Part shown: positions 48,253-61,279 of the stretch, one piece after another
Layout of the letters: every line of letters begins with the position of its first letter
Position numbering within the stretch: position 1 is the stretch's first letter
Source: Allacma fusca
Taxonomy: Eukaryota > Arthropoda > Collembola > Symphypleona > Sminthuridae
NCBI GenBank assembly: GCA_947179485.1
Contig: OX359248.1
Coordinates: forward strand, 29,583,378-29,647,377
Reading direction: 5' to 3'
DNA length: 64,000 bases
The notes under the pieces: model-generated
What the model was told of the DNA's origin: nothing
What the model saw: only the letters and a program-made list of their open reading frames with translations
Database searches by the model: none
Translations under genes and position numbers: made by a program

Positions 48253-49943
48253 ATGGGGGACCCCATCCCGTTCCAATTTGAGTGTCCGGTTTGTTTTGAC
48301 CCCATAGTCCCTCCCTTTAACCAGTGCACTAGTGGGCACTTGCTCTGCCATAACTGTCTCCCAAGACTGGAAACATGCCCCGTTTGTCGAGTGGCAATAG
48401 ATAAAAAAATTCGTATACGAAACCTTCATTTAGAGAATTTGGCAGGTCAGTTTACGTACCCTTGCCCATTCAAAAGCTTAGGGTGCGAAGTTGCACTGCA
48501 ACTGGGTGAAATAGACAATCATAAGTTGGACTGTCCATTTTCGTAAGTTAATATTTTTTACCTTATATTTTTAAATTAAATTAAATGTTATGCTTCCACA
48601 ACAGTGGCTGAATAGTCGGCGTTAATTTTTAGATACAGTCCGAGTTTCATCTTCTCATTTCTATTTTCATGAATACAGAATACAAACCTACTGCTCTATT
48701 ATGGGGATCCAACGGTGCAAACTTTTGATGACAACTGGGAACATAATCAGTCATCTGCTGGAGAAGCATGAAATCTCTGCCTTGGTGTCAGAGTCGGGTG
48801 ATATTGAAATCCATCAAGTTGGGGATATATCTTCGCATTATGGAATCTCTAAGCATTACTGGAATCCAGTGGTTTTTACCTACGAAGGATATGTATTTTG
48901 TACCCAAACTCAATATAAGGAAGGAAGCATATCCTGGAATGTTGTAGTTCTAGGAAGTAAAGCAGTTGCGAAAAAATTTACAGCTACTATTTCCATTGTG
49001 TCCTTTGACGAGGTATGTTTCAATTCTTCCCATATAGATATTGATTCTTCATAGATACTGTAAATTAATTTATTGTAATTCAAAAAATCTTTTTTTCCTT
49101 TACAAAAGAATCGATTCCTTGAATGGAAGGGAGAAGTCGCTTCCGTTCACACACAATCCACTAGTACTGGGAGAGACTACAGATTTTCTGCTCCAATCAG
49201 TACAATTGCAAACTTCTCCCGGAAGACAGAGGACGCGGGTAGGAATTTTTATTGGAATTATATTACGTATCTAATGTGTGCAGTAGCTTCCATTATGTCA
49301 CGCTTATTTACCATGATTTAAGTCTTGGACCGTATTCAATTTACTAATTATTTTCTTTTCACCAATTTTTAGAAAAGTTCTGGTGGTCCCGCCGATGCAA
49401 TAAGAACAACGAACAATGGATGCTAAAAATACGCGTTCAAAATAAAAGTCAAAATGGTCCTGAAAGTCTGTCCCAGAACCTACCAATTGTTAAAAGTCAA
49501 GCTTCAGAAATAGGATGTCACTGTGACACAGATTGTGGGTGTAATAAACCGCACTGCTTTTCTTGCGGTGTCAATTTCCAGGACGAGATAACTTACAGAT
49601 GTATAAAATGTCATATGTACCTCTTGTGTCAAGCGTGTGTTGATAATGGTGTTCATAGTCGACATTTATTTTTTCGTATCCCCAAGAATCGCTCGTTCGA
49701 TGATGCTATTATTACACTCAAAACTTGTAAGTTCAACAATAATTATTACACAAACTCTAACTTCCAGCTAACTTTTGAGTATTTAGAAGCTATGGTTTTG
49801 CAAATTCCTAAGAGTTACTGGAGATTTAATTTATCAAAATATTTTCAGATGGAACTACCGAATTTGTGATCTCACTCCCACCAGTCGTAGCCCCACCTAG
49901 TACCGATGATGGCTACGAAGAACCTCAACCTGATATTGAATAA
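48253..49943 (+). CDS. SIAH/SINA-like E3 ubiquitin ligase with C-terminal ZZ zinc finger (copy 1)
   Basis: Five coding exons (48253-48542, 48679-49012, 49109-49238, 49373-49726, 49849-49943) join in frame to 400 residues, with GT-AG introns of 136, 96, 134 and 122 bases. The RING is complete: C11, C14, C25, H29, C32, C35, C42, C45, with SIAH spacing. The SINA double zinc finger follows, with C71, C78, H90, C94 and C102, C110, H122, H127. Intron 1 splits it. Residues about 128-275 match the SINA substrate-binding fold (SWNVVVLGSKAVAKKF, then FLEWKGEVASVH, then WMLKIRV). A ZZ finger at about 313-349 has CxxC, CxxC, CxxC and HxxH pairs. A proline-rich acidic tail ends in PQPDIE. Known for the family: SIAH proteins are RING E3 ligases that choose substrates through the SINA fold. 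The ZZ addition is not part of canonical SIAH; its role here is inferred to be extra ligand binding. The ATG is the first after a TATA box 147 bases upstream. Confidence 0.88.
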
Positions 49944-50040
49944 GTTATAGGATACATGTGTTTTAATATCTGTATTATTAAGAGAAGACTGAAAGTTTTG
50001 TAAGAATCCCAGATTTTACTTCTGAATGGCATTTTCGTTC

Positions 50041-50046
50041 AATAAA
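50041..50046 (+). terminator. Poly(A) signal of copy 1
   Basis: A canonical AATAAA lies 98 bases after the copy 1 stop codon, which fits a short 3' UTR. Confidence 0.65.
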
Positions 50047-51369
50047 ACTTGTACCAAAGTTAATTGATAAGAGTTCTTCCTTAACATAATCATGCATCCG
50101 TCAATTTCGAGAATGAAGTTATCAATGAGCATACTGATTTTCCCAGGAAATCATCAAAGTTAATTTTAATACATACATAATAGGAGTAATTCACCTTTAA
50201 AATCAGCTTATGTCATATGCACGAAATATGAAGATAAGGAACATGCTCCTTGTAATTAGCTCATATATTCCTACACACTTTATCAGTGCCTGGATACTCC
50301 CTTCTGAGAAACTCCATAGCTAATTTAATACCAGCAAAAATCTCTTCACGGAAAAGTTATGCTTTGATCAAAGGATTGATTTTTTCTCCTAAAATACTCC
50401 CATTACACAAATACTGCACACACACACTTCCCCAGATCATATAATCTATCATAGATATCCGTCATTCCTCCCAAGAAAAAAATTAATAAATTCATCTTCC
50501 GCTAGTTAACCCTCGTTTGATACTCATTTCATGGGAAGTTCCCCTTGTAATAAAACAGATCCAGGAATACTGATCAGCTCTTAATATTGAATCAGCCTCA
50601 AATAAATGTTCCGTAATTCTAAATGAACTTACACTTCAGCTGACTGATCCTCCAAAGACACGGCTATCTCCCCAATATACACATTCACAAATACACACAT
50701 ACACACATCATATAAATAAAATAAATATATCTAATCAGCAAATAAACAGCAAACTTATTTTCTCATATTGCCCATTTCTGCCATCATAAATTTTTAATGA
50801 ATTATTGAAAATAAATTGATCCTAATTAACCTAAAGTAATTATCATTAGAATGAAAAATATATTTCGAAATAAATATCAAAGCAAAAGAATTTTTCCTTG
50901 CTTGTTCAAACTATCTGCATGACATCATAAGTTCTAATTTACAAGCGAATTATTCCTGACCGGTACAGCTGGATTTAGCCATGCACACAGTGCCTATTAA
51001 CTTGCAGAATGGCAAAAGAAACTGTTTTTTTAAAGGTACTGGTGCAAGTATCTACATATGTAGAAAAACCCATCCAAAATTCCCTTTATAAACATTACTC
51101 ATCAGCAATTCAGTGGGGCTCACCAGAAAGTCCTTGGAAATCTATTGAACGTACGTAATGTTCCGAACGTTTTGCAAACATTGGATGTTTGGAGCACTAA
51201 ACCTCCTCTGCTTGCATTTGAGCCCATTAACATGCAACGTTTGACGTTCCACTTTGCCCCATTAAAAAATATTCGTTGTGAAGCTTATCCCTCTTTACGT
51301 GTACAATTGTTAACATAGCATGAAACGTTCACCCTTTCCTTTCTGCTCTTCTGCACCTACAGTTGTTGT
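50047..51369. other. Spacer between copies 1 and 2
   Basis: No coding region was recognised. The sequence is AT-rich with short CA-rich runs (about 50415-50430 and 50688-50706). Its last 200 bases are the upstream region of copy 2, with AACGTT palindromes at 51166, 51236 and 51324. Confidence 0.6.
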
Positions 51370-51377
51370 TATATAAG
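51370..51377 (+). promoter_or_regulatory. Candidate TATA box of copy 2
   Basis: TATATAAG lies 404 bases before the copy 2 start codon. The distance implies a long 5' UTR or a 5' UTR intron; a good acceptor (T-rich, then AAG) sits near 51745. Copy 4 has the same octamer at a similar distance. Confidence 0.4.
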
Positions 51378-51773
51378 GTTCATTTGTAACTGCTCGAGTT
51401 GCAGGCAATCGTCAGTGTCTGTTCTGACTGTCCACATATCAAGAACTGCCGGTTGCTCATATTTATCAAGACTTGCATTTCAAAGGATGATTATTTTTAT
51501 CATCTTGACCAGCACCAAGTATCAAAATATATTTTTCACCAAGCTTAATATTTAATTTACATAATAATTTAAAATACAATTTGATTGACTGTGCTAGTCC
51601 TCGGACGTTATAATTACTATACTCGCAATACCACCAAAATAAATCAATAAGAGTAAGCAGATTATTTTTTACCTTTGACCTTCACATTTTGATTTCACTC
51701 ATCTTGCTAATTCATCTAACATCTGTTGTATTTTTTTTTATTTAAGGATATTTCAAGGACTTATTTTTTAAAA

Positions 51774-53567
51774 ATGGATATGTCCAAGTTGATAATATCC
51801 GAGAGGCTGGAGTGCCCACTTTGCAACAAACCCATTGACCCCAGAAGTTCGAATAATAATAAAGGGAATGCAATTTGCAGTAACTGCTTCCCTAGCCTTA
51901 CATTATTGGCGTGTAGCAGTTCTAGTAATAAACGGGCTAAGAAATCCTCGGTAGCTGTAATAAGTGAGACTACGAATTCGGATCAAAATGAGGAGTCTGA
52001 CAGAGGTCAGAGTAATCCGGATCAGACTTGTCCATTTAGTGGGTCAGGCTGTGAAGCTGTTTTGAGTTTAGGCGAGGTCGAGAGTCATAAATTGGATTGC
52101 CTATTTTCGTAAGTAATTTGATGTTATTGTTGTATTCAGTATGTAGATGATTTAAATTCATATATATTTTGGATAGTAAAAAACGGATTGGGTTCCGATG
52201 TGGTTTGGCACAAACGAACTGGAAATAGTTGAGGGCATTGTGGATTTTGTCTGGTGTTTATCAACTGTCTGATGTGGTGGTTCAAAATGTAGTGAACTAG
52301 TTGGAGTAAAATACTTTGCCAACTCTGTAGGTGCATGAACTTCTGCTCGTTTCTCGGGATCCAGGATCCGAGATGTGATGAAACCGCATCTGTTGACCTC
52401 TTGGACCATCTGGTGAGCAAGCACTCATTGGAAAGTAGGAATGCAAGTGTCAATGGATCTGTTCAAGTTCATCAATGTGGAGATATCGGGGACAGAGTTG
52501 GGGACCTTCGCTGGAATCCGATTGTGATAATGTGTGAAGATGTGAAATTTTTCTTGAGAACAACGCTCGTTAATAGTAAAACCATTTCTTGGAATGTGTC
52601 AGTTCTTGGAAGCCCTGAGACTGCTGGGAGGTTCATTGCCGTCATCACTATTTTATCTCAAAGGGTAAAGACAATTTATTTGGAAATGTTTGAGATGAAG
52701 GCTATTATTACACAGAGTATACATGAGAGCATTTAGTTCATACTCAAATGAAACATTTCGGGTTATTTACACACGTAGGGTAACTCATTAGGGTGGAAAG
52801 GTCAAGTTGTGTCCATTAAGGAGTGCGACCAGCCTTCCTCAGGTTTCGCCCTGCCCATTACCGAACTGAAAGAGTTTTCTTCGCTAAGTAATCAATCTGG
52901 TATGATATTATACAAATATATTGATCTTTAAGAAAATGTAACGGAAGTTAGGCTACGTAATAGTAGTTTTTTCATGTGAATTGGATACATATGTATGTCT
53001 TAAGTAAACAACTAAACTTTTGATCACAGATGACGATGAATGGCGACTGGAGATTCTAATCAAAAACAAATCCACTCAGTACCCTTCAACCTCAAAAGAA
53101 ATTCCCGTTTCTGCCAGTCAAGCTTCCCCCATTAAAAGAAAATATGACTTTACTGAAACTGCAGACGGTATTCCCAAGCACAACGGCTTCCACTGCGATA
53201 GTTGTTCCATGGACCCTGTTGTTGGTATTCGGTACAGGTGCATGGCATGCGAGAATTATGATCTATGTCAGACTTGCATGGACTCTGGCAGCAACTCTCA
53301 TGCTGACCACATATTCCTACGAATCCCTAAGTATGACCATATCACCTGGTACTGCAGTTCAGTGTCAGCTGCTCTTAACTACGGTAACCTTGATTTTCGA
53401 TAAATAACTCTATCTTCATATTTCATCAGTTCTGAATATTATTCTCTACCGAATTATTCCTTCTCATATAAAATTTCAAACATTTTGATATATTTTCAGG
53501 TCGCGTAACTTTTGAAATTGATTCTGAAACAGAGAATGAGGACAGTGATTCCGATGCCGACAGCTGA
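51774..53567 (+). CDS. SINA-ZZ protein with degenerate RING (copy 2)
   Basis: Five exons (51774-52108, 52331-52664, 52779-52899, 53030-53383, 53500-53567) join in frame to 403 residues. Exons 2 and 4 are 334 and 354 bases, exactly as in copy 1. The RING is damaged. The first pair (ECPLC) and the third pair (ICSNC) remain, but the third cysteine, the histidine and the final CPxC pair are gone, replaced by serine/asparagine-rich sequence and an acidic linker. The SINA zinc finger (CPFSGSGC, HKLDC, then C, C, H, H) and the SINA fold (ISWNVSVLGS, LGWKGQVVSI, WRLEILIK) are intact. So is a textbook ZZ finger (HCDSC, GIRYRCMAC, DLCQTC). The tail is acidic (EDSDSDADS). It probably cannot recruit an E2 and could act as a non-catalytic binding partner; that role is inference. 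I chose the ATG at 51774. An in-frame alternative is at 51780. The longer frame upstream begins in what looks like an intron acceptor. Confidence 0.85.
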
Positions 53568-53855
53568 TGCCACTGAGACATGCCATTCACATAACTTTTA
53601 CATTCACACCATATTTTTAAGACTTTTACTTACTGAACGCCATAAATACCTTCCCTTATTTCCCTGTATCCCTCTAAAATACAGAAACTAATCACCTTTA
53701 TGTTTGGATACGAATTCCAAAACAAGTAGCTAATGTCTAGTCCAGATTGTCTAGATAGTCCAACTTTACCAAGTACGATTTTAGTCAAACTCAACAAGTT
53801 TCAGTACGTACTCGCTCCTGATCTCAGAATAATAAGACTGTAGTAACGTAAATGT

Positions 53856-53861
53856 AATAAA
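53856..53861 (+). terminator. Poly(A) signal of copy 2
   Basis: AATAAA lies about 290 bases after the copy 2 stop codon. No better signal was seen closer to the stop. Confidence 0.5.
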
Positions 53862-54480
53862 CATCCCAGTCCAATGAACCCACTTTTACTATTATTAAAG
53901 ATCAAATTTCCTTCGTACCCTCAAGCCTCAAATCCACATAACACTTTCCCCTAATTTAACCTATTTCGCGGAAGCAACAATAAAAGTAAAATATACGAAA
54001 CATCTCCAGTGTTTCCCCACTGCTGATTTACCTCACATCCAAACCTTTCAAGTGAATTTATAACACGTATTATTATACTCCATATACCTACCAAACATCT
54101 CTCAATCATACGTGTCACACTCTCGATCCCTTTCCCGAGATTGCATATATTGCATCATGAGTCACTCCAAACAATAATTATTATTCCTGCTTCCCCATTA
54201 TAATACCTAAGTAAGCTATATCAAATACAAGTTGACAGATAATATGGGACCTCCAACCCATTCTGCAGATATGTATTCTTACTGTAAATAAATACTGTTA
54301 TATTGCACTGATTGATCATTGTCTGATGCAGTGCCATTTTCCGCATATAATTCCAGCACACGGATTGTCTGGTTTCAGTAATACATTTTTTTGTATTTGT
54401 TTTGCTGTCATGCGAGTCATATAATTTTACGTTGATGAGATCATCAATCCAACTTGCTATAAACACAGACAAGAGGCAGC

Positions 54481-54520
54481 GCTCTTATACTGTGGTCCGA
54501 GATAGCCGGAGTTTACTGTA
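54481..54520 (-). mobile_element. Possible pogo/Tigger-like DNA transposon end
   Basis: Read on the minus strand, the sequence starts at a TA dinucleotide followed by CAGTAAACTCCGGCTATC and a GG-ACC segment. This resembles the CAGT-starting terminal repeats of pogo/Tigger elements, which insert at TA. The matching second end was not found, so this is a fragment or a chance match. Confidence 0.3.
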
Positions 54521-54531
54521 CTATACGCATA

Positions 54532-54561
54532 TTGCAGTTGCAGTTGCAATTGCAGTTGCAC
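54532..54561 (+). repeat. Short TTGCAG hexamer repeat
   Basis: Five consecutive units of TTGCAG/TTGCAA/TTGCAC lie directly beside the transposon-like terminal repeat, upstream of copy 3. Confidence 0.7.
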
Positions 54562-55375
54562 TTTGAAGTCATTTCAGGCTTCGGGCTCACTCAGACCCTA
54601 GTTTGGGAACAGATGCGTTAAAATTATTGCATTCCATAGAAATGCTTGATGCTTCCTTTCCTACTTTTTCTTTGAACGGAACGTACGTACTGCCCCAACG
54701 CTAGCTGCTGTCACAAAATAATAGTAAGCCAGTGCTCGTGCTTACTGTCTACATAGTGCTTAAGCCCTATACCATAAGGGAAAGTTACGCTTCGTTCATT
54801 CCGTTATTGTTAGGTTTAGTTACGTGGGGTTTCTAAAAACCTTCTCTTTAATAATTATTAGTTCGTAAGCACACCTGCATTATTTTGTTTTGTTGGGTGT
54901 CAATAGCTTATTATCTAGCTTCTATACATAACTATAAGAGTGGAATTTAAGAATAGTACCATTTGTAGTTACATTTTTTTGATTAATAATTTTTTACAAG
55001 TAGAAATTCCTGGTTGTCATTTGGAAATGACAACGTACAAATAAATGTTTCCTGTATTTGCTTAGTATCTTATCTTACCTATTAATTTAGTTGTATCAGT
55101 TCATCAGCTCCAATGGAAGGTAGTATTTAATGTGACATCGTTTGTATTTCGTTAGTGTATTAAATGAATCACTGAATTCCAATTAATGACAGCAGAGCCA
55201 GGACGTAACTCCTCGAGTCGTGTTTATCTCAAGTTCTCTCAGGAAGTGATAATTTATGAATTCGTAAAGTTAGAGTAGATTGAATTTGATGTAGTTTTTT
55301 TTTTGCGAGACAGTGGTATTGTGTACTTGATACTTTTAATTTAAATAATTTCGCTAGAGCAGGATAGACTGTAGT

Positions 55376-55383
55376 TATATATT
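55376..55383 (+). promoter_or_regulatory. Candidate TATA box of copy 3
   Basis: TATATATT lies 125 bases before the copy 3 start, a spacing close to that of the copy 1 TATA box. Confidence 0.35.
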
Positions 55384-55500
55384 GGGTGGGGAGATCTACA
55401 CTGTGACAGTGACCTGTGGGACTATTGACTCGGTAGGTATTAATAGTGAATTTAATTGGCTTCCATCGAGCTTTTTATCAGGACCAGACTGGGAACCACC

Positions 55501-57131
55501 ATGGCTGACTTTCATGATGACCCTCACAAATACGAGTGCCCTGTTTGTTTCGAAATCCTGGCCGCTCCGATCTTCCAGTGCAACAATGGACATTTGCTGT
55601 GTGAAGTTTGCATTCCGGAATTGCAAACCTGTCCGATTTGCCGGCAAGAGTTACCGAAGAAGAGGGTGAGGAATTTAGAAGTGGAAAAAATTGTCAAGAA
55701 GCAGAAATTCTCTTGCCCGAATCGGAGTTCGGGATGTACGGCAATGTTGAAATGTGACATGATTGAAGACCACCGGATTGATTGCTTGTTTTCGTGAGTG
55801 AAATATGTATATTGGGAGAGGGTGCGTTTTGATGGAGTGGATTGTGTTATTTGGATGTGTGTGTATTTTTTTGTGTATAATTTCAGTATTATGAATTTCT
55901 GTCCGTACTTGGGAATCGACTCTTGCCATGACAGTGTGGCGCTGACGGATTTTGTTGTTCATCTCATGGGGAAGCATAAACTTTTGGGGGAATTTGTTCA
56001 GGAAGGAACTACGGTGGAAATATGTCAGTCGGGTGCTCTGGCGAGGGATATTCAGTGTGGGAAAGTAGAATGGGCACCTAACTTTATTGTTCATGGGGAT
56101 AATACATTTTTCCTGCAAACCAAAGTAACGTCGTATGGAATTTCCTGGATGATTTCATCCCTTGGTAGCTCTGAAGTCGCAAATAATTTTATAGCAACTA
56201 TCAAACTAGTATCTCCTAATGAAAATCAGGTATAGAGGAAATACTAAAAAGAGTAGTGGATTTAAGATTTGTATTAATTATTTTATTAATGGGTGTGCCA
56301 GGATTTGCCTAGTGGTGATGATGTGTGTCGTATGTGTTAATTCAGGGCTGTTCGTTGTCATGGCGAGGTCGGGTTTGTAGCCTGAGGTCAAAGTTTGACG
56401 ATAACCCAAACGTGTTTTGTGTATCGTTTCTACAGACAAGGTTTTTCTGGAAGAATGAAGATCAAAATGGTGATTTTTTTTTGGATAAAATTGACAAAAT
56501 ACATTCGTTGGTTCGTGTCTTTTGTCAAGAAGTTCGTAAGTTGATGGTTGAAGATATGTATGTATTTATTTTAGATCTAGTGTCTCTGAAACTACAACTT
56601 TGTATTACTAAGAATGGTGATCAAAAGCCTTCCACCCGCGGGATTTGGAGGATAAACACACCAGCTCAACCAACCGATTCTGTTCAAGCCCATGGTTCTC
56701 AAGATCCAACTGGACTGGTCGTACATGAACATGTTGGCTGTGATGGCTGTCATGCGAACCCGTTGATAGGGCCCCGATACAAATGCATTGAGTGTCAGGA
56801 TTTTGATCTTTGTAAGGACTGTATTGATAAAAATGTCCACTCCCATCATTTATTTTTAAGGGCTTCTGGGCGTAATATGAACGAAAGACTGGAGCAAGCA
56901 CACCGGGGCTTCAGAGGTATAAACTAAAGTAATCTTACTAACAACAACTAACTATTATATTTTAAATGAACCCTGCCTTAATAATAAAATACAATGCCTT
57001 GTTTCGTCGTTACAGCTGAAGCTAGTGGCTCTAATTTAGGGAATGAAATGCAAGTAGCATATGATGCAGAAGAGTGGACTGACTTAGATGAAGAATCTGA
57101 TTTCTCGGAAGATTCCGACTCCGATATATAA
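55501..57131 (+). CDS. SIAH/SINA-like E3 ubiquitin ligase with ZZ zinc finger (copy 3)
   Basis: Five exons (55501-55793, 55887-56229, 56346-56469, 56575-56916, 57016-57131) join in frame to 405 residues. The RING is complete (ECPVC, CNNGHLLCEVC, CPIC), followed by the linker NLEVEKIVKK, the SINA zinc finger (CPNRSSGC, HRIDC, then CPYLGIDSC and H, H) and the SINA fold (ISWMISSLGSSEVANNF, LSWRGRVCSL). The WxL strand seen in copies 1 and 2 reads VSLKLQLCI here, so the tryptophan is lost. The ZZ finger is close to consensus: GCDGC, GPRYKCIEC, DLCKDC, HSHH. The tail is strongly acidic (DEESDFSEDSDSDI). The start ATG has a good context (ACCACCATGG). Intron 3 is 105 bases and has no in-frame stop, so retention would insert 35 residues. 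By family it should be an active RING E3. Confidence 0.87.
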
Positions 57132-57421
57132 TTTTTATTACCCTCTGGTGCCAGCTGCGAATTAATGTACGTAGACTTCCTACATTTGTTATCTTGTTCT
57201 TGCCTCTTTAGATTTGTAATTTGTACACTATTTAAATACCTGTGCGAATTTTTAGCTCCATGGATTGTTTCAATCATCGAAAAGACGAGTAGAGAATAGT
57301 GTCTGTCATATTATAGTGTTATGATGCTCAACTTTTATTTGTGTTTCCAAAGGAAGAGTTCTCTATTTTCGGTAGAATAGTGTAATATAATGTGTATTTA
57401 TATATTCTTCAAACCCCGCCA

Positions 57422-57427
57422 AATAAA
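57422..57427 (+). terminator. Poly(A) signal of copy 3
   Basis: AATAAA lies about 290 bases after the copy 3 stop codon, the same distance as for copy 2. Confidence 0.5.
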
Positions 57428-57923
57428 CGATATTAAACAAATTGGTTAATCAAGTACTGTACATTGCCGTCGCTCAGGATTTTAATCCATGTATATAAGT
57501 AGCATTATCGGCTGTTAACTGGCATTTCAAACCTGATTTTGTATAAACAAATTTTCGAGGCATTCATGCCTGCCTGTAATAACAATTAACCTTATCAAAA
57601 AATCGTTATACCCAAAAATTTGCTTTCATGAACACAAGTATTTCTTTGCTTATTCAAATGATCGAAACTAAAGTCTCCAGATAAACAAGTAGTTCTTTGA
57701 ATACGCTTGAAATATCTTTCCAATTATCAGATATTCTGATTAAGATAGCTGGGGGGTCTGCAAAGCGATAATTTTCAACAGTTTCTAACGACCCATCCTT
57801 TCATACTACTTAAACCTGAACTCAGCGTGATTTCCACAGTCATTTTTCAAAATCTGAAATTAGGATCTCACCGTTTCCTTAAATATTTATTTGCCAAGCA
57901 TTCCCTTCCATCATTAGTTAAAA
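57428..57923. other. Spacer and upstream region of copy 4
   Basis: No gene was seen. A TATATAAG octamer at 57492-57499 lies 432 bases before the copy 4 start. It could be its promoter, as the same octamer precedes copy 2. Confidence 0.5.
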
Positions 57924-59606
57924 ATGTTCGCGTTTCAGTTCCCTGCTATCAAGTTTGACTGCCCTGTGTGTTTCGATTTACTTCTACCACCAATATTTCA
58001 GTGTTTCGAGGGTCATCTGTTATGTAAAAATTGTGTTGATAAGCTACAGAGTAAATGTCCTATCTGCCGTGGGGATCTGCCTGAAAAAAAAATCAAGGCT
58101 TTAGAAGTGGAAAAAATAGTTCGACGAAGCCCCTTTGGATGCAAATTCCGTAAATTCGGTTGCAATGCAGTCATGCCATTGGAAGGTATCATCGATCATG
58201 AGCTTGACTGCCAATTTGCGTAAGGGATTTCAATACTATAAATATGCAGTAGTAAAATAAAGCAAGCTATTTTATTTACTTCCAAATACGAAATCCTACC
58301 TAACCAACCACTTACTGTCTATACCTTTCACAAATCTTCTTGCCTACGAAAGCAATTGACTACAGTGCAATCTGTCTATAAGAGCACCCCTATAGGCAAA
58401 ATTTGGCTCGTATAAAGGAATCTGGTGGGGAGGGGGGGATTAACATTGCAGTAAATGTTTATGTGCCATTTTTGCTCTGACTCTTATAGCAAGATTGTAC
58501 AGTATGACTTAGAGCTTCCAGTAGCTAAATATTATATTCCGTGCATCTCCGTAATTGAATTTGTGGTAAACCTACTAATTTTTAGGTCCTCAGTTAACTT
58601 TTGCAAATGTCTGGGCCTGAACTGTAAGAAAAAGGTCCAATTCCAAAACTTACTTTCTCATCTCACAACTAAGCACGAAATATCAGTAGGAACTTTGAAA
58701 TATGACCTCGGTGAGGAAATTGAGCTTTCCCAAGACTTGCGACTCGACGGTAGATTTGTTGCTCCCAGCCCCGACTGTTTCCTACTGCCGACGTATTTCA
58801 TGCAGTCGGAAGAAACTTTGTTTTTCTTAAAAACCGAGTGGACGCAGCGGTACTATGTTCGCTGGATGGTATTTGCCGTTGGAAGAGGAAATATTTCCAA
58901 CAAGTACACAGCAACTATTGCTCTACAATCTCTACGTGACCCAGTTAATTCTTTTCAAAAACATTTACTTATTCATCAGTAATTTTCCTGGAAATTTTTC
59001 CCATTAAAAGTAATTACCAACTTAAATGAATGATAATGCTTGGTTTACTTCATTCAGAATTATTCCCTCAAATGGGAAGGGAATGTATTCAGCGTCCATA
59101 GCAAAAACAAAGATGTGAAGGAAGAATGTCTCACACTCCCCTGTGATATACTATGTCCGACGTATATGCAAGAAACGGAAATGGGTTAGTGTGTAATGTA
59201 ACAAAATCTCTAGACAATCTTAGCGAACATATATCTATGTATTGATTTATTACATACTATCCGAACAAGAAACAAATTGATGAAACATAAAACACAGTGG
59301 ACTAATACATTTTCAAAATGTCATTTCAGGGGACTTCCATTGGAAACTGCGCTTAAAAGTAACCCGGAAGTCGGAAGTATCCTTTCAGTTATTTAAGTAT
59401 GTATTGCTTCACGTTATCGCTGTTGTCATTGTTTACGAAATTCTATCCTCCATTTTTTAAAATTCAAATAAGTATAGGTGAACATTCCCTTTGAACATGT
59501 TACGCTTTCTGATGAAAAACCTTTTGTTATGCAAGTAGCAATTAGTAGTAATTACTGATGTAATTCCAGGAGAAAATGGTTCATTCGAAATTTGAATATT
59601 GTGTGA
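57924..59606 (+). CDS. SIAH/SINA-like protein lacking the ZZ finger (copy 4)
   Basis: Firm exons are 57924-58219, 58586-58943 and 59058-59184, with a fourth from 59330. The RING is complete (DCPVC, CFEGHLLCKNC, CPIC), followed by ALEVEKIVRR, the SINA zinc finger (CKFRKFGC, HELDC, CKCLGLNC, H, H) and the SINA fold (LFFLKTEW, VRWMVFAVGRG, LKWEGNVFSVHS, FHWKLRLKV). No ZZ finger follows in any frame before copy 5. Two ends are possible. The fourth exon may stop at a GTATGT donor (59397) and splice to 59570-59606, giving 294 residues and a tail ending RKWFIRNLNIV. Or it may read through to a stop at 59458-59460, giving 303 residues and a hydrophobic end (YVLLHVIAVVIVYEIL). The AATAAA at 59627 serves either. 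Intron 1 (366 bases) is the longest of the cluster and carries a transposon-like end. The intron 2 donor (CCA then GTTAAT) is weak but is the only phase-correct one. Confidence 0.75.
58363..58440 (+). mobile_element. Transposon-like end inside intron 1 of copy 4
   Basis: After a TA dinucleotide comes CAGTGCAATCTGTCTATAAG and a further TATAAAGG-like segment, a style typical of pogo/Tigger-related miniature elements. It lies in the longest intron of the cluster, which fits an insertion. No second end was identified. Confidence 0.3.
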
Positions 59607-59626
59607 ACAAAATTAAGACATCTGGA

Positions 59627-59632
59627 AATAAA
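59627..59632 (+). terminator. Poly(A) signal of copy 4
   Basis: AATAAA lies 21 bases after the stop of the spliced model and 167 bases after the read-through stop. Confidence 0.5.
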
Positions 59633-60040
59633 AATTCGCATTCCTCCTAGCAAACTATTTTACTTCCTTTTGCAGAAGCTTCATTCAAATAGAACGATAG
59701 CATTGAGTGACCTTACAAAATATTTCCATACATTAGAATATTGTTCATTGACTTTTTGCAATTCTATCGTTTGTACATAATTTGGAGCGTTGTGTTTTCT
59801 TCCCTTTCTCTTTACTTAGAATATTATATTTCGCTACTATTCTCAGTTAGTCTTTCTCATACAAAGGTACGGATTTTGTTCCCAGCAAGAATTTATTTCT
59901 ATTCATCATTTATTTATTCACTCGATGAGGCATTTATCTCACAAGCAGAAGCCAGTTTAAATCCAATTGACAAAGTAATTTCCAAAGTCCAGTAGAAAGC
60001 CGAAATTTTATTTTAAACTACATTGTCTTCAAGTGTTAAA

Positions 60041-61279
60041 ATGTCCTTTTACAAGCGCAGTGTAACATACAACTGTCGGTCGTGTTTGAAGGATTTATTA
60101 CCTCCGGTTTATCAGTGTCCGAACGGGCACTTGATTTGCGAGGGCTGCCTCAGCACTGCGACAATCTGTCCAGTGAGAGTGTCAAAAGAATCTAGTAGGC
60201 GAAAAAATCTGAAATTTGGAAGTTGAAAATGCAATCTCGAATTTAAAATACCACTGCAGACGAGTAGGGGACGGGGAGGGATGTCTCGCTACAATGAGCT
60301 ATGAAGAATTTATTGAACACAAGTTGTATTGTCCTAACCGGTAAGCCATGTAGTAATAATAAGATTGGAGACTGGGAACCTAAAAGAAGTAGAACTGTAT
60401 TTTTAATCTGTATCTTGGTTCTAATTATTACCACTTATTTTTACAAACAAATAATTTAGAGCGTTGAAACTTTGTTCCCTATCGGAAATTGACTGTGAGG
60501 CGAAGATGAAGCGAAAATATCTGGCTGATCATTTGGTTAATGCCCACGATTTGTCGGTCTTTCATAATTATCACATGGGGAAGACTCTCAAAAATTGTTT
60601 TGTATCAAAACATATTTTAACGCTTCCTCAATTTCCTGGATGGCTGTATTAGTGGGAAGCAAAGCTGAGGCTCAGAAGTATCAAGTATCTTTTCAAATTA
60701 CTTCTCCGTCAAGGGTATGCACATATGTAATTACCTTAAAAAAATTATTGTCTATCCTCAATTATCTATTAGTTACAACTCTTGGTTTAATTTGAAACAA
60801 GGGGTATTACTTTAATAGAATTCGGAATATCAATGGACCGGCCCGGTCTCAGGCATTGAGAGCGATTTCAATAATTCTACTAATTACTTCAGTATTTCGA
60901 AGGAAGTATTTAAATCGTATATCAAAACTGATGTGATCGTGAACCATAGCGGATGTAAGTTGTAAAATATATGCATGCGTAGGTCCAGCTATAATGCTTA
61001 GGTTTTCTAAAACATGCTTCAAATAATATTACCAATGATATTTATTTTGCAGATACCGCATGGTTCATCAAATTTAGGATAAATCATGCCCTGTTGCCTT
61101 CAACTCAGGATACAGAGCCGTTAAGGCAGGGACAGGATGAATATGAGGTTCAAATGGATCCCGATCAAAATGTGGTGCCTAGAGGGTTTTCACGGAGTAT
61201 TCATCTGGAAAGCAGTCTCAGCTTCATCAGTGATTCCGAGCAAGGTTCAATTGTTTGTAGAGAAATTAATGAAGAATAA
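60041..61279 (+). pseudogene. Decayed SIAH/SINA-like paralogue (copy 5)
   Basis: The homologous exons are 60041-60340, 60460-60714, 60819-60954 and 61053-61279, with the same intron phases as the other copies. Several lesions are visible. The RING keeps six or seven ligands, but its last cysteine is missing (CPVR instead of CPVC/CPIC). About seven extra bases before the conserved LEVE linker shift the frame into a TGA at 60224-60226. The downstream frame resumes (YHCRRVGDGEGC, HKLYC). In exon 2 about 25 codons between the zinc finger and the SINA fold are missing, with a frame change, so the first frame stops at 60650-60652 and the fold continues in another (SISWMAVLVGSKAEAQKY). Exon 3 (YQWTGPVSG) and exon 4 (AWFIKFRI) are open, but no ZZ finger follows. 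The end is acidic. An unusual gene with rescuing introns is possible but not seen. Confidence 0.72.

Follow-up and report, generated by a model that had tools for sequence, protein, structure and literature searches.

What a SINA-type ubiquitin ligase does with a ZZ zinc finger at its C-terminus is the question raised by a gene cluster in the springtail Allacma fusca, on chromosome 4 at positions 48253-59460 of the window, the 64,000-nucleotide stretch that was analysed. PMC5547486 presents the SINA/SIAH ligases as a family under high conservation and gives invertebrates a single sina gene. The genes of the cluster resemble these E3 ligases in having a RING, two SINA zinc fingers and a SINA fold in identical order. 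Canonical proteins stop after the SINA fold, as the earlier note held and as the SIAH of the springtail's own genome does; in contrast g1, g2 and g3 of the cluster, and four relatives on chromosome 3 (A-D), add one or two ZZ fingers, with g4 ending like the canonical proteins. Flies also have sinah, which is named in Pfam's description of Sina_RING. The account that we favour, with moderate confidence, is that these are SINA-like RING ligases of Allacma fusca that acquired a ZZ at the C-terminus, perhaps a reader of N-termini, and that are found at two loci. The features of the cluster, in window coordinates, are these:

48253 to 49943, plus strand: g1, with RING, SINA zinc fingers, SINA fold, divergent ZZ and weakly acidic tail; five exons (48253-48542, 48679-49012, 49109-49238, 49373-49726, 49849-49943), 400 aa, intron phases 2,0,1,1
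49552 to 49674, plus strand: ZZ finger of g1, exon 4, residues 312-352, from the family ZZ profile, with coordinates reckoned from the gene model
51774 to 53567, plus strand: g2, with degenerate RING, SINA part, ZZ and acidic tail; five exons (51774-52108, 52331-52664, 52779-52899, 53030-53383, 53500-53567), 403 aa, intron phases 2,0,1,1
53176 to 53301, plus strand: ZZ finger of g2, exon 4, residues 313-354, from Pfam ZZ; whole-genome match C12:29636553-29636678
55501 to 57131, plus strand: g3, with RING, SINA zinc fingers, SINA fold, ZZ and acidic tail; five exons (55501-55793, 55887-56229, 56346-56469, 56575-56916, 57016-57131), 405 aa, intron phases 2,0,1,1
56724 to 56849, plus strand: ZZ finger of g3, exon 4, residues 304-345, from Pfam ZZ; whole-genome match C12:29640101-29640226
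57924 to 59460, plus strand: g4, RING-SINA without ZZ; four exons (57924-58219, 58586-58943, 59058-59184, 59330-59460), 303 aa, intron phases 2,0,1
60041 to 61279, plus strand: copy 5, remnant of a RING-SINA gene with pieces in different frames, its end placed by eye

In these hand-made models the frame of g1-g4 is uninterrupted from ATG to stop. The first three intron phases are 2,0,1 in all nine models made in this way, an agreement that is partly non-independent as exon ends were placed by hand with the copies guiding one another. The least certain point of g4 is the exon 2 donor, put after 58943; a donor after 58978 would disrupt the frame. Five adjacent same-strand paralogues with five-exon models had been proposed; five starts do occur (48253, 51774, 55501, 57924 and about 60041), but only g1-g4 are open, and five exons apply to g1-g3 but not to g4. 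Copy 5 as an intact fifth gene is ruled out by frame changes that break its RING-SINA pieces: tblastn with nine family proteins places, within one exon, the RING in frame 1 (60041-60175) and the first zinc finger in frame 2 (60204-60335), and pieces of the second exon in frame 1 (weakly, E 0.59) and frame 3. These matches, none of them a ZZ piece, reach 60929 in the third exon, and the stretch from there to 61279 was placed by eye only.

With Pfam cut-offs of 29.3 bits for Sina_RING, 21.4 bits for ZZ and 32 for Sina_ZnF, Sina_RING is above its cut-off in g1 (46.4 bits), g3 (50.9 bits, E 1.6e-13) and g4 (51.6 bits, E 1e-13). Among the window genes Sina_ZnF is above cut-off only in g1 (33.9 bits) and g4 (E 5.1e-10), and g3 is slightly under it at 30.6 bits. 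Both scores of g2, 16.6 bits for Sina_RING and 20.2 bits for Sina_ZnF, are below the cut-offs, and its RING is degenerate, aligned zinc ligands being missing in a nine-row alignment. The same alignment has C72, C79, C95, C103, C111, H123 and H128 of the two SINA zinc fingers invariant, with the histidine of the first finger absent from the invariant positions. The Pfam model of the SINA fold, PF03145, has no match in g1-g4 at E<=1 or in any of the nine models at E<=0.01, and across the genome it picked out nothing but the canonical SIAH (5 candidates scored, 2 of them matches). Profile comparison nevertheless indicates that the SINA (TRAF-like) substrate-binding fold is present in the family. 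The nine-protein profile matches a solved SIAH1 chain comprising the RING and first zinc finger (9g0l) at E 4.3e-24 and, over profile positions 62-224, SIAH1 substrate-binding chains at E 9.1e-5 to 7.8e-4; against the genome's own canonical SIAH, hhalign gives a probability of 99.7 (E 4.9e-26) over columns 7-250 of 272. Fold prediction for exon 2 was poor and uninformative (mean pLDDT 46.0). The RING and SINA parts that the earlier note gave to all copies are thus right as to RING, zinc fingers and fold order, except that the RING of g2 has lost zinc ligands. A secreted effector like the RING proteins described for phylloxera in PMC6892190 was considered; short stretches precede the RING in the models.

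Pfam recognizes the ZZ of g2 (51.2 bits, E 1.1e-13) and of g3 (42.0 bits, E 8.1e-11) and misses that of g1, whether given the whole protein (E<=1) or just exon 4 (E<=10). With a ZZ profile made without g1 the g1 finger scores 30.4 bits; 470 of 1000 shuffles of its C-terminal part scored at all, the best at 12.4, and all eight of its ZZ ligand positions align with those of g2 and g3. Pfam finds no ZZ in g4 at E<=1, and a sample of seven paralogues showed none either. The proposed domain check of the assembled proteins, made with Pfam for all nine models in full length (E<=0.01), returned Sina_RING in 9/9, ZZ in 6/9 and Sina_ZnF in 4/9, the g1 ZZ coming from the family profile. In g1-g3 the ZZ lies with the last SINA strand in one exon, exon 4, and one frame, with no stop or intron between them, and in A, B and C the first ZZ likewise lies in one open exon with that strand. 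Because of this shared exon frame a separate ZZ gene or ZZ exon is rejected, so that, as far as the reading frame goes, the junction is real and the notion of a ZZ exon of its own falls. The linker from SINA strand to ZZ is 29 to 135 residues in the six genes measured. Six cysteine columns are invariant across ten ZZ fingers and one histidine column is 90% conserved, the histidines aligning more poorly than the cysteines. Codon differences in the ZZ are 0.446, 0.358 and 0.636 at positions 1, 2 and 3 (1886 codon comparisons), and TGT and TGC both occur in each of the six invariant columns. An acidic tail had been claimed for copies 1-3 along with the ZZ. Counts of D+E to K+R in the last 35 residues (g2 9/1, g3 13/0, g1 7/1) bear this out for g2 and g3, g1 being weakly acidic.

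The zinc-binding cysteines and the domain order recur at a second, unlinked cluster on chromosome 3, in the intervals 21858094-21859971 and 21869598-21879150, where A-D have the architecture RING-SINA-ZZ-ZZ, the first ZZ of D being incomplete (20.7 bits with the family ZZ profile). A further chromosome 3 gene, F (41.97 Mb), was dropped as a ZZ carrier, its exon 5 being cysteine-rich by eye with no match to the ZZ profile. F had been labelled ZZ in the tree, in which four branches are long and no fork is starred; so labelled, a single gain of ZZ has weak support (73/83, and 72% of 200 bootstrap trees), and when the count was redone with F lacking ZZ there are two changes. The ZZ was probably gained once, with multiplication at two loci thereafter. 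C1 of the assembly has another array, whose exons encode MIB_HERC2 and ZZ; a link to it was rejected, as MIB_HERC2 was detected in the frame tested and no Sina_RING match lies in that array. The expansion suggested for this lineage is supported within the one genome covered, that of Allacma fusca, with 46 Sina_RING places above cut-off and two ZZ loci.

On the favoured account, copies that had gained a ZZ would have come to carry one ZZ and a tail on chromosome 4 (g1-g3) and two ZZ on chromosome 3 (A-D). The RING of the family would recruit an E2; the SINA beta-sandwich would, like that of SIAH, dimerise and bind part of a substrate or of an adaptor; and the ZZ would read something further, most probably a free N-terminus, in the manner of p62, KCMF1 and PRT1. 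Where the RING is dead, as in g2, a copy could serve as a non-catalytic partner. Catalysis, dimerisation and ZZ ligand are what we infer here; the anatomy is compatible with the idea that such an E3 may have two recognition modules.

For the ligand, the ZZ profile compared with solved chains has HERC2, MIB1, p62, KCMF1 and PRT1 among 54 sequences, though ranking of domains as small as ZZ does not decide ligands. p62 is an autophagy receptor in which D129, D147 and D149 are each required to bind N-terminal arginine (PMC6197226). The equivalents are all D in four of the ten fingers (g3, A1, A2 and C2), two are D in another four (g2, B1, B2 and D2), one in the first finger of C and none in g1. 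Acidic pocket positions are part of the general ZZ pattern, and by themselves are no proof of N-terminus binding. A different target, histone H3 or SUMO1 tails, with the ligase acting on chromatin or SUMO-marked proteins instead of N-degrons, has in its favour that the SUMO1-linked HERC2 ZZ tops the sequence profile ranking (E 1.1e-15) with the H3-linked HERC2 ZZ near (8.6e-15). We consider it decidedly unlikely, as p300/CBP and ZZZ3 score far below HERC2 and, by predicted fold, p62 chains lead: they make up 19 of the best 20 matches of g3 exon 4 (TM-score 0.75-0.90 by target length, 38-45% identity, from a weak model of mean pLDDT 52.3 with only 3 matches at E<=0.001), with HERC2 at rank 21. 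That the ZZ is instead structural, capping the SINA fold or binding its own tail with no free N-terminus read, is unlikely, but has this in its favour: g1 keeps zinc ligands yet lost all three acidic positions, the first ZZ of D is incomplete, g4 and the sampled paralogues do without, and g2 and g3 end in acidic tails. Against this, eight of the ten fingers retain two or three acidic positions, the linker lengths suit a mobile reader, and many matched ZZ chains were solved with N-terminal, histone or SUMO peptides.

These readings overlap, and confidence in one does not exclude another. The cluster may be a decaying by-product of the birth and death of SINA-like genes and mostly functionless, a view to which the broken copy 5, the dead RING of g2, the divergent ZZ of g1 and of D (first finger) and the many Sina_RING places lend something, but we judge it very unlikely given that g1, g3, g4 and A-D are open across 303-549 residues in four or five exons and that ZZ cysteines are retained despite codon change. 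An artefact, either neighbouring SINA-like and ZZ genes read as one or an assembly error, is hardly credible even with gene models drawn from genomic sequence alone and a silent PF03145: ZZ and last SINA strand run on in one exon frame in six genes (g1-g3 and A-C) spread over two chromosomes, whose first three intron phases agree, and an assembly QV of 58.7 is given in PMC10427803. A bolder extension of the favoured account, quite unlikely in our estimation, would make these a new class of N-terminus-reading ligases, built on a SINA scaffold by a branch of the springtails, where SINA would pick the substrate, one or two ZZ would check its terminal residue or tail, dead copies such as g2 would tune active ones by pairing, and fast turnover would proceed as if chasing changing targets.

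Among known systems, PRT1 of Arabidopsis is a RING-type E3 with no known SINA fold. It is alike in that its ZZ is among the matches, PRT1 ZZ chains having been solved with Y-, F- and W-degrons, and the likeness is limited to the pairing of RING with ZZ. The ZZ of p62/SQSTM1 is closest in fold to that of g3, KCMF1 and BIG being further, and the pocket residues are partly common; p62 is not known as a ligase, and neither it nor KCMF1 nor BIG is known to have a SINA part. MIB1 and HERC2, ZZ-containing E3 ligases high in the sequence ranking, carry MIB_HERC2 and other domains and not SINA. Searches of the open-licence PMC literature found no SINA/SIAH with ZZ and nothing on expanded SIAH E3 ligases of Collembola. 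In looser searches there, among the papers listed (8 of 221 and 8 of 32), none was by its title about springtail SINA genes. The Folsomia candida genome was published in PMC5490193, whose main text nowhere mentions ubiquitin, seven in absentia, SIAH, SINA or zinc finger.

The Sina_RING places of this one animal genome stand against the single invertebrate sina stated in PMC5547486. The RING-SINA ligases with ZZ may select their targets in two ways simultaneously and, if the ZZ reads N-termini, there would be animal N-terminus recognition inside a SINA-type ligase, with a logic comparable to that of plant PRT1. If this is true, the natural series with one ZZ, two ZZ, none and a dead RING would make the contribution of each module measurable.

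Proteins in which RING and SINA parts are joined to a ZZ finger form a real family in Allacma fusca, and it is present at two loci, which is beyond what a single window could show. The genome searched (392.74 Mb, 91 contigs; an RNA-seq-based annotation has been announced as forthcoming, PMC10427803) has Pfam ZZ matches at 35 places, 32 above cut-off, and these include two in the window, on contig C12 (58.81 Mb, chromosome 4), and seven at 21.86-21.88 Mb on C10 (chromosome 3). Exon ends were placed manually at frame-keeping GT/AG sites with the copies as mutual guides.

Gene models of the family (g1-g4 in the window; A-D and F on chromosome 3)
g1, 48253-49943: 400 aa, five exons, intron phases 2,0,1,1
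g2, 51774-53567: 403 aa, five exons, intron phases 2,0,1,1
g3, 55501-57131: 405 aa, five exons, intron phases 2,0,1,1
g4, 57924-59460: 303 aa, four exons, intron phases 2,0,1
A, 21.86-21.88 Mb, plus strand: 448 aa, modelled
B, 21.86-21.88 Mb, minus strand: 466 aa, modelled
C, 21.86-21.88 Mb, minus strand: 549 aa, modelled
D, 21.86-21.88 Mb, minus strand: 467 aa, modelled
F (locus L047), C10:41974283-41976817: ninth model, close relative of A-D

The earlier note described five adjacent five-exon paralogues, each with RING and SINA parts. Four open genes bear this out, but the fifth copy is broken, its RING and first zinc finger, from the same exon, being in different frames in tblastn; the five-exon structure holds for the hand-placed models of g1-g3 but g4 has four exons. 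With the nine family proteins as tblastn queries (E<=0.01) no further copy was found anywhere in the window. None of the frames listed for window positions 1-48000 reaches 130 codons from stop to stop, and so the cluster is preceded by a long tract poor in long exons. Sina_RING is above the Pfam cut-off in g1, g3 and g4, but the RING of g2 is degenerate; Sina_ZnF is above it in g1 and g4, and the SINA-fold model matches none of the four at E<=1. Against solved chains, a profile of the nine proteins has SIAH1 9g0l as its top match, at E 4.3e-24 across the RING and the first zinc finger, with substrate-binding chains of SIAH1 at E 9.1e-5 to 7.8e-4 over profile positions 62-224, and hhalign aligns columns 7-250 of its 272 with the canonical A. 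fusca SIAH (probability 99.7, E 4.9e-26). These matches make it very likely that the proteins have the SINA fold, in a form too diverged for Pfam to detect. Fold prediction for exon 2 alone (mean pLDDT 46.0) was uninformative.

That copies 1-3 carry a ZZ finger, as had been proposed, is upheld. Pfam ZZ is above cut-off in g2 and g3, and while g1 has no Pfam ZZ match, its finger scores 30.4 bits with a profile of the nine other family fingers, the best of 1000 shuffles, 470 of which yielded any score, reaching 12.4. In all three genes the finger shares an exon with the last SINA strand, 36 to 41 residues apart and with no intervening stop, so a product lacking ZZ would require an additional splice site within the exon. 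Across the ten fingers aligned six cysteine columns are invariant, each with both TGT and TGC codons, and one histidine column is at 90%. Codon differences are highest at the third position (0.636 vs 0.446 at the first and 0.358 at the second), the pattern expected under protein-level selection.

In genes A-D the RING is followed by the SINA zinc fingers and the SINA part and then by two ZZ fingers, one encoded in exon 4 and the other in exon 5. In D the first of the two is incomplete, scoring 20.7 bits where shuffles gave 8.9 at best. An extra Sina_RING match, without a gene model, adjoins them at C10:21881389-21881493. All nine models agree in the phases of introns one to three (2,0,1), given hand-placed exon ends guided by the other copies. 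At the fourth intron g1-g3 have phase 1 but A-D and F have phase 2, so that the single- and double-ZZ forms diverge exactly where one has its tail and the other its second ZZ. The cysteine-rich last exon of F has no score with the family ZZ profile; it may represent a finger that has decayed or been rebuilt.

In a 15-row tree built on the stretch from the RING through half the SINA fold, one branch (support 73/83; 72% of 200 bootstrap trees) separates g1-g3, A-D and F from the remaining rows, and A-D group with F (88/92). Four of its end branches are long, and none of its forks is starred. Loci L053 and L054, which are more diverged and lack a clear single second exon, were excluded. With F scored as lacking ZZ two changes are required, and a single gain of ZZ followed by loss is the simplest account, though unproven.

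Flies have sinah besides sina. Elsewhere in the A. fusca genome SINA-like genes are numerous: Sina_RING matches at least 60 places at E<=1, at least 46 above cut-off (one counting only together with its same-frame neighbours), though a Sina_RING match by itself is not proof of a SINA fold. The canonical SIAH on X1 (C5) is the sole place that the Pfam SINA-fold model matches. At E<=1 exon 2 of A finds the nine models and eleven other places, 20 in total (weakest E 0.13). No ZZ was seen in the listed frames of seven other RING-SINA loci (1.5-3 kb each), and when positions were compared by eye, every ZZ match outside the two clusters was more than 100 kb from any Sina_RING match. A further SINA-like cluster on chromosome 2 (C8:23689488-23906596) has six Sina_RING matches above cut-off in 220 kb; in one member, L052, ZZ was looked for and none was seen in the frames listed. 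At C12:45521003-45587936 eleven equal weak Sina_ZnF matches follow one another at intervals of ~6.4-6.7 kb; the frame around each has 1244 codons, and a large gene or element may be repeated in tandem here. A published survey states a single sina gene for invertebrates (PMC5547486); A. fusca deviates from that statement, which concerns canonical sina genes.

A second ZZ expansion, unrelated to RING-SINA-ZZ, is on the minus strand at C1:11448623-11503866 (L023-L029), where 16 of the 35 Pfam ZZ matches lie, 15 above cut-off; MIB_HERC2 was found in the frame tested, and a 497-codon HSP70 frame lies inside at C1:11474855-11476345. Among open-licence papers we found no description of SINA or SIAH combined with ZZ. 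The combination first noticed in the window is real and extends to a second locus, with corrections to the g2 RING, copy 5 and the exon number of g4.

In the sequence-profile comparison the solved ZZ chains closest to the family are those of HERC2, a fission yeast ZZ protein, MIB1 and p62. Chains of p62 ZZ are 19 of the top 20 fold matches of predicted g3 exon 4 (TM-score by target length 0.75-0.90), in a search with only 3 matches at E<=0.001 and a model of mean pLDDT 52.3, 62-74 across most of the ZZ. In p62, D129, D147 and D149 are each reported as required for binding N-terminal arginine (PMC6197226). Their equivalents are D/D/D in g3, in both fingers of A and in the second of C; D/N/D in g2 and both fingers of B; N/D/D in the second of D; E/D/N in the first of C; and F/M/L in g1. 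Such positions are commonly acidic across ZZ fingers, and for that reason are no proof of N-terminus reading. As to the function that we infer for the RING-SINA-ZZ family, the residues of the g1 finger argue against N-terminus reading there, and in most copies the acidic positions allow it.
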